Below are positions 25,224-28,748 of a DNA stretch of 37,786 nucleotides, piece by piece. Under the pieces are notes generated by a model. That model did not search any database. It was not told the origin of the DNA and was given only the letters and a program-made list of their open reading frames with translations. Within the stretch, counting starts at the first letter, position 1. Each line of letters opens with the position of its first letter. This stretch comes from Clostridiales bacterium (GTDB lineage: Bacteria; Bacillota; Clostridia; Christensenellales; Borkfalkiaceae), in assembly GCA_015069495.1 (NCBI GenBank), contig SVIN01000017.1, positions 1 through 37,786 of the forward strand, given 5' to 3'. A program made the position numbers and the translations under genes.

Positions 25224-25858
25224 TCCAACAGCATTTTGGCCGCTTGTTGTTCCGCTTCTTTTTTATTACCGCCCGAGCCAAACGCATTTTGTCCCATCGC
25301 GGTGACAGTCGCTTCAAATACAGGGGCATTGTCTTTGCCCGATTTCACCGTTTGATACACGGGGGGCCGTTCACCTTGGCTTTGTAACCATTCCTGCAAA
25401 GCCCCTTTATGGTTTTCGGTTTGCGCTTGCGTTTCCAAACGCCCATGCTGTAAAATGAACGCTTTCGCGGGGGCATAACCGCCGTCCAAATAAATGGCGG
25501 CTACCACCGTTTCGAATATGCTGGAAATCGTCTTTTTCCCGACGTTGGCGCGCCCGCCCTCTATACGCAAATATTTCTGCAAGCCAAGGCTTCGCACCGC
25601 TTCATCCAAAGCATCCTCGCACACGTATTTTTGCCGTTGAAAGGTCAAACGCCCTTCTTCCGCCCGCGCGTCACGCAGATACTGCCATTCGGTCACCACC
25701 AATTGCAACACCGCGTCACCGAGGTATTCCATGCGCTCATTATCCTTACCGCCGTGTATATGCGCGTAAGTCGAATGGGTAAACGCTTCTTCCAGCAACG
25801 CCTTGTCGCGGAAGGTATACCCGATTTTATTTTCTATTTCTGTAAAAGGGAAATTCAT
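25190..25858 (-). CDS. rnc: ribonuclease III, altered active site and C-terminus
   Basis: This is a double-strand-specific RNase for rRNA and mRNA processing. The 222 residues have the RNase III signature NERMEYLGDAVL (40-51, with E44 and D48) and a C-terminal double-stranded-RNA-binding domain from ~155 (HKGALQEWLQSQG...FGSGGNKKEAEQQAAKMLLDKL). At the second catalytic pair, where most enzymes read LADxFEAxIGAIYLD, this one reads ISSIFETVVAAIYLD: E116 is kept but the Asp is Ser113. The last residues (GNITRTPI) come from an inverted end of a MITE-like element. The start overlaps the plsX stop (TAATG). Identity is certain; full activity is not. Confidence 0.95.
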   Translation of the reverse strand: MNFPFTEIENKIGYTFRDKALLEEAFTHSTYAHIHGGKDNERMEYLGDAVLQLVVTEWQYLRDARAEEGRLTFQRQKYVCEDALDEAVRSLGLQKYLRIEGGRANVGKKTISSIFETVVAAIYLDGGYAPAKAFILQHGRLETQAQTENHKGALQEWLQSQGERPPVYQTVKSGKDNAPVFEATVTAMGQNAFGSGGNKKEAEQQAAKMLLDKLGNITRTPI

Positions 25859-26892
25859 TATTCCGCCGTTTCCGTCTTCGTTTCGGTTGCCATCGCATTT
25901 TCTAAAATCCCCGCGATTTTTTCAACCATTTGTCCGCGCACTGCGTTTGCCGCCTGTTCGATACAAACCGCGAACCCGCGCGCTTTCGAGTTGCCGTGAC
26001 CTTTTACCACTGCTTTTTTCAAACCCAAGAACATTGCCCCGCCGACCGCTTCATAATCCAAGCTGCCGCGAATTTTCTTGATGATATCTCCGCAAAGCAA
26101 CGCGCGGATTTTCGTCCAAAGGTTGCGCTTGAATTCACGTTTCATAATCGTGCTGACCGTTTTCCCGCAGCCTTCCACCGCTTTCATGGCGATATTACCC
26201 GTAAAACCGTCCGATACCATGACGTCAATTTCACCATACATCAAATCGCGCCCTTCCACGTTGCCCACGTAATTCACCGAGGGCGTTTCCTTTAACAAGG
26301 CGTTGACTTCTTGTTGCAAAGCAAGCCCCTTGTGGTCTTCCGTACCGTTGTTCAAAAGCCCGACCTTGGGGTTTTCAATGCCGTATGCCGCTTGCGCGTA
26401 GGTGGAAGCCATGATGGCAAAATGCACCAAGTTGATGGGTTTACATTCAAGGTTTGCCCCGCAATCGCAGATGAACGTACCGCTGCCGCGATAGTTGGGA
26501 ATAATGGGACAAAGCGCAGGACGGGAAACCCCTTTCAAACGCCCAAGCACCAACACGCCCGCCGTCAATACCGCGCCCGTCGAACCCGACGATACCAAGC
26601 CGTCCGCCTTGCCGTCTTTCAACAGTTGAAATGCCACGACCGTGGACGAATCCTTTTTCGTCTTGACCGCTTTCGTGGGGACTTCTTCCATGGTAATGAC
26701 TTCCGTGGTATGTACGATTTCCAAGCGGTTTGCATCGTACTTGCACTCGGATAAAATTTCTTTGATTTGCGTTTCGTCGCCACAAAGAATCACGGACAAA
26801 TCCTTATCCTTTTTCAAAGCTTCTACCGCGCCTAATACTTGCTGTTTCGGGGCGAAATCTCCGCCCATTGCATCGATTGCTATTTTAACCAT
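25858..26892 (-). CDS. plsX: phosphate acyltransferase PlsX
   Basis: PlsX converts acyl-ACP to acyl-phosphate for phosphatidic acid synthesis. The 344 residues begin MVKIAIDAMGGDFAPKQQVLGA, the family signature, and include TKKDSSTVVAFQLLKDGKADGLVSSGSTGAVL and VSDGFTGNIAMKAVEG. The ATG has GGAG 8 bases upstream. It starts the plsX-rnc-smc-ftsY run; the acyl-carrier-protein gene often found between plsX and rnc is absent. Upstream is the hairpin array, and no convincing promoter was found within 100 bases. Confidence 0.97.
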   Translation of the reverse strand: MVKIAIDAMGGDFAPKQQVLGAVEALKKDKDLSVILCGDETQIKEILSECKYDANRLEIVHTTEVITMEEVPTKAVKTKKDSSTVVAFQLLKDGKADGLVSSGSTGAVLTAGVLVLGRLKGVSRPALCPIIPNYRGSGTFICDCGANLECKPINLVHFAIMASTYAQAAYGIENPKVGLLNNGTEDHKGLALQQEVNALLKETPSVNYVGNVEGRDLMYGEIDVMVSDGFTGNIAMKAVEGCGKTVSTIMKREFKRNLWTKIRALLCGDIIKKIRGSLDYEAVGGAMFLGLKKAVVKGHGNSKARGFAVCIEQAANAVRGQMVEKIAGILENAMATETKTETAE

Positions 26893-26918
26893 TGTATTTC
26901 TCCGTGTGTGTATATTGA

Positions 26919-27323
26919 GTGAATTGACCGCTTTGCGGTCGTGAATTGTTGCTTTTGCAACGTGAATTGAAAACGTTGTTTTCGTGAATTGACAGCTTTG
27001 CTGTCGTTATTGCTGATATTTACCACAACGCAACGCTTGGCGTTGCAATTCACTGAGCGCAGCGAAATTTCACGAACGCCTTTACGTTCTATTCACGCCG
27101 TTAGACAAAATTCACCCTATATGTTTTTGTGAGTTGACCGCTTTGCGGTCGTGAATTGTTGCTTTTGCAACGTGAATTGAAAACTTCGTTTTCGTGAATT
27201 GACAGCTTTGCTGTCGTTATTGCTGATATTTACCACAACGCAACGCTTGGCGTTGCAATTCACTGAGCGCAGCGAAATTTCACGAACGCCTTTACGTTCC
27301 ATTCACGCCGTTAGGCAATTCAC
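26919..27323. repeat. duplicated array of small hairpins with GTGAATTG spacers
   Basis: Two direct copies (26919-27115 and 27129-27323, about 96% identical, period 210). Each begins with four 21-22-base units made of GTGAATTG plus a short hairpin: GACCGC-TTT-GCGGTC, GTTGC-TTTT-GCAAC, GAAAAC-GTT-GTTTTC and GACAGC-TTT-GCTGTC. The second half has GCAACGC-TTG-GCGTTGC and GAACG-loop-CGTTC, with the spacer inverted (CAATTCAC). Stem sequences differ between units but stay complementary. It fills the plsX-asnS gap (26893-27353), where no gene was seen. Confidence 0.85.
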
Positions 27324-27358
27324 TTTAAGTTGTGCGCCTGAAGGTCGCCCAACTTAAT
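27322..27358 (-). terminator. hairpin overlapping the asnS stop codon
   Basis: TTAAGTTG...CAACTTAA arms enclose GCG...CGC and a CCTTCAGG centre (about 27324-27356). The left part on the minus strand (TTAAGTTGGGC) equals the outer end of the MITE-like element at 24945. No U-tract follows, so it is more likely a transcript-end structure or a member of the hairpin family than a classical terminator. Confidence 0.4.
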
Positions 27359-28748
27359 ACTTAAGGTCACCAAACGTACGAGGATAAGGCAAAACGTCAC
27401 GAATATTCGAAATCCCCGTCAAGTACATAACCATACGTTCAAACCCAAGCCCGAACCCTGCGTGAGTTGTACCGCCGTAACGGCGTAAATCCAAATACCA
27501 CGAATAATCTTCGGGGTTCATGCCCAATTCTTTAATGCGGTTGACAAGCTTGTCGTAATCATCTTCTCTTTGCGAACCGCCGACCAATTCCCCAATACCA
27601 GGTACCAACAAATCCGCTGCAGCAACCGTCTTGCCGTCGGGGTTTTGTTTCATGTAGAACGCCTTGATTTCCTTCGGATAATCGGTCAAGAATACGGGCT
27701 TTTGGTATACTTGTTCGGTCAAGAAACGTTCGTGTTCGCTCTGTAAATCCTTACCCCAGAAAATATTTTTATCGTCAAATTTATCCGCGTTCTGCTTCAA
27801 GATTTCAATTGCGTCCGTATAGGTCAAGCGCACGAATGCGTTTTCGGATACGTTCTTCAAACGTTCCAACAAGCCCTTGTCAACGAACTGGTTCAAGAAG
27901 TTCAACTCGTCCTTACAAGTTTCGCTTACGTAGTCAATGACGTATTTTACCATCGCTTCCGCAACGTCCATATCCCCTGCCAAATCACAGAACGCCATTT
28001 CGGGTTCGATCATCCAAAACTCTGCCGCGTGACGAGCGGTGTTGGAGTGTTCCGCACGGAAGGTAGGGCCAAACGTATATACGTTGCCGTATGCCATTGC
28101 AAACGTTTCCGCGCTCAACTGCCCCGAAACGGTCAACGCCGCGCGGGTATTGAAGAAGTCTTGTTTATAATCAACGGGTTTGCCCGTCTTTGCCACTTCG
28201 TCCAAATCAAAGGTTGTTACTTGGAACATTGCGCCCGCGCCTTCACAGTCGCTGCCCGTGATGATGGGGGTATGCACGTAAACGAATCCGCGGTCGTTGA
28301 AGAATTTGTGAATTGCGATTGCCGCTTCACTGCGGATACGGAACGCCGCGCCGAATAAATTGGTACGGGGACGAAGATATGCGATTTCACGCAAAAATTC
28401 TACCGAGTGGCGTTTTTTCTGCAAGGGATAATCGGGGGTAGATTCGCCCTCCACCTTGATTGCCGTCGCCTTGATTTCATAGGGTTGTTTGTTTTCAGGC
28501 GTCACAATGACAATACCCGTCACAATCAACGCGCAACCAACGTTTTCCTTTGCGATTTCATCATAATTGTCAAGGGTAGCGCGTTCAAACACGATTTGCG
28601 TGTTTTTGAAACAACTGCCATCGTTCAGTTCGATAAACCCGAACGCCTTTGAATCGCGGATGGTCTTTGCCCAACCCGCAACGGTAACGGTTTGACCGTC
28701 GTATTGAGAATAGCTTGCGTTAAGTGCTTTCAGCTGCATTCTTTCCAT
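27354..28748 (-). CDS. asnS: asparaginyl-tRNA synthetase
   Basis: This is a class IIb aminoacyl-tRNA synthetase charging tRNA-Asn. The 464 residues have the N-terminal OB-fold anticodon-binding domain ([25 protein letters not shown]), motif 1 around [27 protein letters not shown], motif 2 [24 protein letters not shown] and motif 3 [27 protein letters not shown]. The AMFQV and AEFWMIEPE stretches favour AsnS over AspS. No T-box leader was found; instead a promoter with paired palindromes lies upstream. A second ATG three codons in (28739), after GGAAAGA, is an equally possible start. Confidence 0.97.

Follow-up and report, generated by a model that had tools for sequence, protein, structure and literature searches.

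A tandem pair of gene-less heptamer-hairpin elements and their probable link to the S23/IVP protein family

The gap between a plsX-like gene and asnS in the stretch of DNA that we analysed (the window, 37,786 nucleotides) contains a palindromic element that is duplicated in tandem. The two copies appear MITE-like and to come from a small dispersed element, the complete form of which is an arm, a gene of the S23 / 23S rRNA intervening-sequence (IVP) family and an inverted arm. With a probability of about 0.68, we consider the window copies to be derivatives without the gene, their heptamers being recognised by IVP.

The original prediction had described the array as duplicated in tandem, and this was confirmed: copy 1 and copy 2 share 97% identity over 190 nt without a gap and start 210 nt apart. 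In each copy, GTGAATT linkers of 7 bases alternate with four hairpins, then come a short centre and four hairpins with inverted linkers. The left half reads GTGAATT-hp1-GTGAATT-hp2-GTGAATT-hp3-GTGAATT-hp4, then the centre (GTTATTG, an AT-rich part, CCACAAC), and the right half hp5-AATTCAC-hp6-(ATTTCAC)-hp7-(TATTCAC or CATTCAC)-hp8-AATTCAC. The flip of the spacer to AATTCAC and the approximate dyad proposed earlier are real. The features are the following, plsX-like and asnS being putative names taken over from the original prediction.

26919..27115, no strand assigned: gene-less element copy 1 (four linkers and four hairpins, centre, four hairpins and four inverted linkers), from sequence comparison
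27129..27323, no strand assigned: gene-less element copy 2 (tandem duplicate, first linker degenerate, GTGAGTT), from sequence comparison
26919..27005, forward strand: copy 1 left arm, GTGAATT at 26919, 26941, 26962 and 26984, a hairpin after each
27006..27029, no strand assigned: copy 1 centre, GTTATTG...CCACAAC, the site of the IVP gene in the complete element by comparison with loci L083 and L279
27030..27115, reverse strand: copy 1 right arm, hairpin GCAACGC.., AATTCAC at 27047 and 27109, degenerate linkers at 27067 and 27090
27129..27215, forward strand: copy 2 left arm, linkers at 27129 (degenerate), 27151, 27172 and 27194
27216..27239, no strand assigned: copy 2 centre, read from the sequence
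27240..27323, reverse strand: copy 2 right arm, AATTCAC at 27257 and 27317, degenerate linkers at 27277 and 27300
25858..26892, reverse strand: plsX-like gene (ORF), flank of the insertion gap, downstream in the reading direction
27354..28748, reverse strand: asnS (asparaginyl-tRNA synthetase-like) gene (ORF), upstream in the reading direction

The hairpins of the copy 1 left arm are, in order, GACCGC.., GTTGC.., GAAAAC.. and GACAGC... Two points depart from the earlier description. Two right-arm linkers are degenerate in each copy (ATTTCAC; TATTCAC or CATTCAC), and hairpin 6 (TGAGCGCAGCGAA) pairs poorly, so that the statement that stems "always" pair was slightly too strong. The word GTGAATTG has 14 occurrences in the window where 2.1 would be expected, and 0/100 shuffles reached 14. 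Only a 24-nt centre lies between the arms, without an IVP gene, and the site is the plsX-asnS gap and not the inside of a 23S rRNA gene, with no rRNA family match in 26600-27700. Like a MITE, the window element has terminal inverted repeats, is dispersed and carries no gene. In the printed flanks of the element clusters, no target-site duplication was seen by eye. Prediction of terminators and promoters showed no excess over shuffles.

We then looked at folding and pairing. RNA folding of 26915-27125 gave z = -4.6 for the forward strand and z = -6.8 for the reverse strand, with 0/200 shuffles equally stable, and DNA folding of copy 1 gave z = -3.8. The element sets used for anatomy, pairing and gap counts were drawn from 100 of the 107 pattern matches of the genome described below. 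Hairpin units (227 in total, 178 distinct) were taken from 49 elements of the window's own genome (G000), G035 and one stretch of G028. Among the distinct units, stem pairs 2-4 from the base were Watson-Crick in 89.5%, while swapping arms between units gave a mean of 28% and a maximum of 31.8% (200 shuffles). Unit pairs differing at 1-3 positions showed 344 loop changes, 83 one-sided stem changes and 72 two-sided ones, pairing being kept in 64 and absent in 8, counts that run over all unit pairs, so that one event may count more than once. The stem sequence is free and the pairing is conserved; the original prediction was right that structure is conserved instead of stem sequence, and the array passes the check on stem changes set there, these being paired. 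Selection at the RNA level should tolerate G.U pairs, but the mispairs inside stems on the sense strand (5 G.T, 4 A.C and 2 others), a small sample, show no such tolerance. In 48 elements of G000 and G035, neighbouring hairpins are separated by 188 gaps of at most 20 nt, of which 113 measure exactly 7 nt. In elements with other linkers, gaps of 3, 5, 6, 7 and 8 were common, and we read those of 3 and 5 as fitting linkers whose own ends pair across the hairpin. A CRISPR array was rejected, as it had been from the outset, since the repeat is 7 nt long and the "spacers" are hairpins, paired far above the arm-swapped control.

The window is contig 17 of a MAG of 1.74 Mb that is 76% complete. Its genome holds 107 exact matches to the pattern GTGAATTG-N(8 to 18)-CGTGAATTG, divided 50 to 57 between the strands, and 0 matches to the pattern read backwards. 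When 29 clusters were compared (the window and 20 fetched stretches), many had the whole anatomy, some were half elements with one arm and some were duplicated in tandem. The strict pattern was present in 14/61 genomes (60 relatives and the own genome), so that the further copies envisaged earlier do occur both in the genome and in relatives. The spread within the genus is patchy, with 82 matches in G035, 63 in G022, 61 in G028 and 0 in most genomes, and three consecutive linkers were found in 5/396 genomes of the order, the own genome included. Among the species-genome matches listed, 22 loci were inspected; loci with labels other than Clostridia or Ruminococcus-like consisted of near-identical units in tandem, and no varying hairpins were seen at these GTGAATT-array loci. 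At L123, an identical repeated unit contains a short palindrome. Of 48 placed elements, 37 lie between co-directional ORFs as called by a crude ORF caller. One arm of the complete element is expanded at G000:C40:24254-24459 (L083 1255-1459), where four to five repeats of a two-hairpin dimer (CCAACTGTGTTGG / AAAACGGAGTTTT) follow one another, and slippage by whole units is suggested. A composite transposon between half-elements was considered and discarded, the genes between half-arrays at C30:81-90 kb and 43-49 kb reading as ordinary housekeeping-type ORFs.

The complete form is found in the same genome. A pair of half-arrays (L083, G000:C40) brackets a 117-aa gene (G000:C40:24530-24835), with GTGAATT arms on both sides. 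The protein matches PF05635 (E 9e-27), TIGR02436 (E 8e-31) and the solved five-chain entry 2rld (E 5e-24), and by these matches the gene is a member of the S23/IVP family. The window arms, GTGAATT...AATTCAC, have the same design as the arms around this gene, and for the GTGAATT linker the own genome has many gene-less copies and one complete copy. It also contains a second system, with CGATAT as linker, 56 three-linker matches on 13 contigs and, at C30:38403, an IVP gene flanked by this linker. In the genus, PF05635 was found in 21/57 genomes with 28 matches, one of which (L294) is below the Pfam cut-off and was excluded from the genus IVP counts, save one count giving 18/28. The few pairs in which selection was measurable indicate purifying selection on IVP, dN/dS being 0.04-0.13 in the 4/16 pairs with measurable dS, three of the four near saturation. 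Most genus IVP genes adjoin linker-hairpin arrays, and the linkers differ by group:

GTGAATT: IVP in G000, G006, G028, G030 and G077, all upstream of a glnS-like gene
ATGAATT: IVP in G011 and G076
GTGAAGT: IVP in G006 and G078
ATGAAAT: IVP in G013, G016 and G027
GCGATAT/ACGATAT: IVP in G000, G004 and G017
GTTATAT: IVP in G020 and G064
GTTATGA: IVP in G019 and G061

For some other genus IVPs the linker was seen in single cases, L295 is at a contig end, and the flanks of L287, L288, L291 and L297 showed no hairpin array on reading. A further IVP lineage, made of L297 (G000:C40:41581), L291 (G021) and L288 (G019), has TATTCACTCTTCACTTTTCACT-type repeats upstream and not hairpin arrays; just upstream of L297 and L288, a tRNA-like sequence was seen by eye. 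We compared linkers with proteins, the classes being assigned by eye with GTGAATT and ATGAATT merged, and 8/27 genus IVPs with a single or unclear linker being omitted (L277, L292, L300, L287, L288, L291, L297 and L295). The nearest IVP relative by protein shared the linker class in 19/19 cases. Identity was 0.68 within classes against 0.49 between them, a difference reached in 0/5000 permutations, with the lowest within-class value (0.47) below the highest between-class value (0.60). Because the classes often coincide with shared insertion loci, this match between linker and protein indicates co-inheritance, not yet specificity.

The plsX and glnS gaps were each read in 30/57 genus genomes, the closest by protein, and the plsX-asnS gap was located with the C-terminal 199 aa of asnS as query. 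At the plsX-asnS gap, the G006 element shares the linker of the window copies but has different hairpins, that of G074 shares their architecture but has GTGAAGT as linker, that of G022 has the linker GCGATAT, and G031 carries ATGAAAT-type arrays with two Gut-1-like matches. In G078, whose AsnS fragment is 98% identical, the gap is 36 nt long without an element. Some species thus have one version or another of the element at this site, and others have none. At the glnS gap, IVP with arms was present in 4/30 genomes (577-731 nt) and, outside the 30, in a fifth (G028, seen in L280); the gap was 25-56 nt in 12/30 genomes and longer without IVP in the rest. Array relics, e.g. a hairpin then AATTCAC, were seen there in G035, G009 and G036. 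From its relic, G035, which is rich in gene-less copies, looks like a genome that lost the complete element, a loss that is plausible but not proven from this one relic. An unrelated dispersed intergenic repeat (GTATATGCGTCGCATTTC...CACGTAC...TACGCTCCC, by eye) also recurs in the plsX or glnS gaps of relatives (G004, G019, G035, G017, G062, G072, G016, G013 and G011).

Heptamer arrays often accompany IVP genes across bacteria. Five or more occurrences of one 7-mer within 250 nt of the IVP gene were counted in 50/100 loci, the other half falling short of this mark, against 4/89 control stretches 700-950 nt away (Fisher 4e-13) and 0/16 Y1 transposase loci, this last control being the 16 best Y1 matches by score. 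By group, the five-copy test gave 17/27 in the genus, 7/29 in the phylum sample, 6/17 on named plasmids and 20/27 in genomes picked by GTGAATT matches, which are not a random sample. From the 30 pattern-picked loci, L340, L342 and L345 had been dropped (same genomes as G020, G006 and G028); the phylum set was 29 loci from the 45/249 phylum-sample genomes with PF05635, and the plasmid set 17 of 23 matching plasmid records. A word-free lag test showed strong lag-7 periodicity in 24/100 near stretches versus 2/90 far ones. Besides multiples of 7, other lags were rarely over threshold (11 three times, 8 and 16 twice each, and 17, 18 and 20 once each). Where the top word occurred on either side of IVP (41 loci), its copies were inverted in 33 loci and direct in 8. 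The statistic of 7-mers shared between flanks was too noisy to use: its inverted/direct means were 9.24/9.0 in the genus, 11/8.3 in the phylum set and 13/8.7 in the handles set. The Y1 control showed a similar tendency (5.6/3.2).

Outside Clostridia, the arrays flanking IVP are usually without hairpins. In the phylum sample, tandem 7-mers of this kind, often inverted, lie beside a good part of the IVP genes (AGTGGAG upstream and ACTCCCC downstream; GTCAGCA and TGCTGAC). Tandem repeats likewise adjoin IVP in Tychonema, in Rikenellaceae and other Bacteroidota loci, and in Oscillatoriaceae, where an 18-base unit flanks the gene (L341). AGTAGGG ... CCCTACT surrounds IVP on Nostoc edaphicum pNe_5, inverted heptamers are visible by eye, below thresholds, on Azospirillum lipoferum AZO_p2, and arrays of AAAAGCT and AAAAGCC run in the same direction on Pseudanabaena galeata pPg_01. 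The period is 8 at the Gemmatirosa locus and at a Verrucomicrobiales locus, the latter with an array on one side only. Two IVP genes from other genera of the phylum (L319 and L321) are flanked by 11-mers (GTTAAACGATA, TAGTTAAACGA) and not 7-mers; periods of 7+4 or 7+11 may be meaningful. Phage records gave 0 matches to the query IVP protein. On Anabaena sp. 90 pANA02 (L379), Pseudanabaena galeata pPg_01 (L372) and a plasmid of Picosynechococcus PCC 7003 (L377), IVP lies amid cas genes with short flanking repeats, its neighbours being either cas6 and cas4 or cas10 and a cmr3-like gene. The listing of IVP as CRISPR-linked in a CRISPR survey may reflect such insertion into cas operons.

In the explanation that we favour, the heptamers (GTGAATT here) would be the recognition units of the IVP protein, a ring in one reported member. 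The ring would read heptamers one after another and tolerate whatever folds away between them. With the hairpins folded out, the heptamers would form a near-contiguous tandem array, the form found beside IVP genes elsewhere. A perfect hairpin does fold away, and this would account for hairpins spaced 7 nt apart, for a linker that does not change and for stems that pair although their sequence is free. Gene-less copies would spread and persist through IVP protein supplied in trans; we infer this mobility and its chemistry, as well as the strand and the nucleic acid bound, and put the chance of mobility in trans somewhat above one half. The inverted arms round the gene, the many gene-less copies, the occupied and empty gaps and the intergenic placement are the traces to be expected of a small mobile element with MITE-like offspring. 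The arms have four GTGAATT and a possible fifth inner heptamer, and tandem arms vary widely in length; five heptamers per ring is a guess.

Several observations go against this explanation. Ten GTGAATT-positive genus genomes have no GTGAATT-flanked IVP, including G035 with its 82 matches at 93% completeness, and G030 has IVP with 0 pattern matches. The window copies themselves lack the gene, half of the IVP loci fail the five-copy test, and the direct arrays (8/41) do not follow the inverted design. Also on this side are the genus IVPs, at least four, that lack a hairpin array, the failure to see a target-site duplication by eye, the description of the S23 family as of no known function and the absence of RVT_1 matches from the four genomes with most pattern matches. 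The protein-binding scaffold put forward in the original prediction comes close to the explanation that we favour, with IVP as the putative binder. That prediction, partly supported in its interpretation overall, had missed the dispersal, the complete form with the IVP/S23 gene in the same genome, and a curated family of the same design, Rfam Gut-1.

The main rival is that the arms are regulatory RNA sites, IVP binding a heptamer-hairpin leader of its own mRNA and of genes near the dispersed copies, which would have been dispersed by other means. TRAP, which binds repeated triplets, is the model for such a leader. In complete GTGAATT elements the array is directly 5' of the IVP start, and at L279 the inner end of the arm extends over what is likely the Shine-Dalgarno region (GTTGCGGGAG, ahead of ATG). 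The prevalence of co-directional neighbours among the placed elements and the curation of Gut-1 as an RNA also fit. However, a leader alone has no need of the inversion seen in most two-sided loci, the few mispairs include no excess of G.U, and the copies adjoin different genes, the same gap being empty in several relatives. As a full account we hold it unlikely; the upstream arm may nevertheless have an autoregulatory role as RNA, which is compatible with recognition of the heptamers by IVP, the two being not exclusive.

Palindromes that template themselves and spread passively, through replication slippage, template switching and recombination, with the IVP gene as a hitch-hiker, would suit the tandem duplication in the window, the repeated dimer at G000:C40:24254-24459 and the stem changes on both sides at once. 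This leaves unexplained why, in several phyla, heptamer arrays accompany the IVP family but not the transposase family taken as control, and why each IVP group has its own heptamers, and we find it improbable; the slippage that the original prediction had suggested fits the duplication and the dimer but is at most a secondary process. We give still less credit to REP/BIME-like palindromes mobilised by a RAYT or an IS200-type Y1 transposase. The single Y1_Tnp gene of the own genome (G000:C34:72159-72515, L040), a 156-aa ORF that reads like what we take to be an ordinary IS200/IS605 TnpA, does have arrays at about 1.6 kb and 2.4 kb on either side. Against this, G035 (82 matches) and G028 (61 matches) have no Y1_Tnp match, G030 and G031 have strong ones with 0 pattern matches, and 7-mer arrays were absent within 250 nt of the best-scoring Y1 loci. 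No GTAG/CGTC tag was read, the hairpin foot being G...C flanked by GTGAATT. The own-genome Y1 gene thus failed as a partner on co-occurrence and on its flanks, in line with the earlier view that the array is not a standard REP.

More widely, and tentatively, since we put it at somewhat under even odds, S23/IVP may be an unrecognised, phylum-crossing class of small mobile elements, in which a ring-shaped non-transposase protein goes with cognate inverted heptamer arrays read in series, whether or not hairpins fold out between the heptamers, and may be the source of much of the bacterial heptamer excess, of 23S rRNA IVSs and of the Gut-1 "RNA". This would join three orphans: the S23/IVP family, the intergenic heptamer repeats of several phyla and Rfam Gut-1. 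If the protein reads heptamers, the origin and spread of bacterial heptamer repeats become testable with a 117-aa protein and a short oligonucleotide. The reading would also explain in a simple way why the linkers are constant while the hairpin stems vary freely.

Among the closest known systems, RAYT with REP/BIME has a similar logic, one small chromosomal protein going with cognate dispersed palindromes. The partner differs, a four-helix bundle instead of the Y1 transposase of RAYT, and so does the conserved part, the 7-nt linker instead of the palindrome. Gut-1 RNA (Rfam RF01706, type sRNA) resembles the window arms, its consensus being hairpins joined by (G)UGAAAU, but it has another linker and no two-armed palindrome. 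It matched the window at 24.0 and 20.7 bits, below the gathering score of 50. It exceeded the gathering score in the IVP loci L284 (51.9 bits) and L282 (51.2 bits), where it lies some 130 nt upstream of the IVP match, and it was found at E <= 0.1 in 12/19 IVP loci searched; a twentieth source searched, L264, is an asnS locus with two matches.

Avd of diversity-generating retroelements is described, in part of PMC10053308, as a likely PF05635 homologue by sequence and structure alignment. Unlike in such retroelements, no reverse transcriptase was found in the own genome (76% complete), G035, G022 and G028, the four genomes with most matches, where RVT_1 gave 0 hits. RVT_1 is present in 8/57 genus genomes, including the array-bearing G012, G014 and G033. 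Copying by a resident reverse transcriptase was rejected because the four most array-rich genomes have no RVT_1. Dispersed intergenic tandem heptamers similar to the IVP arrays, for which the portions consulted name no agent, are TAACTGA in Beggiatoaceae, Cyanobacteria and Bacteroidetes, GGGAATC in Xanthomonas and GGGGATT in Nostoc (PMC4679880, PMC4692102). Passages of these papers call heptamer repeats over-represented and little studied (PMC4692102) and state that "no mechanism is evident" (PMC4679880); "S23" and "four helix" have 0 occurrences in the text available from either. In the open-licence literature, we found no paper tying S23/IVP to heptamer or hairpin arrays.

The 23S rRNA IVS with an S23p ORF is like the complete element in that a protein of the same family lies between inverted repeats. 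Sections of PMC4990558 describe the S23 family as of no known function, the Xanthomonas S23p as a homopentameric toroid, and an IVS of one pathogen with tandem heptameric repeats ahead of the S23p ORF, and mention a proposed mobile origin of IVSs. Unlike these IVSs, the window element occupies an ordinary intergenic gap, has heptamer-hairpin arms and is accompanied by many gene-less copies.
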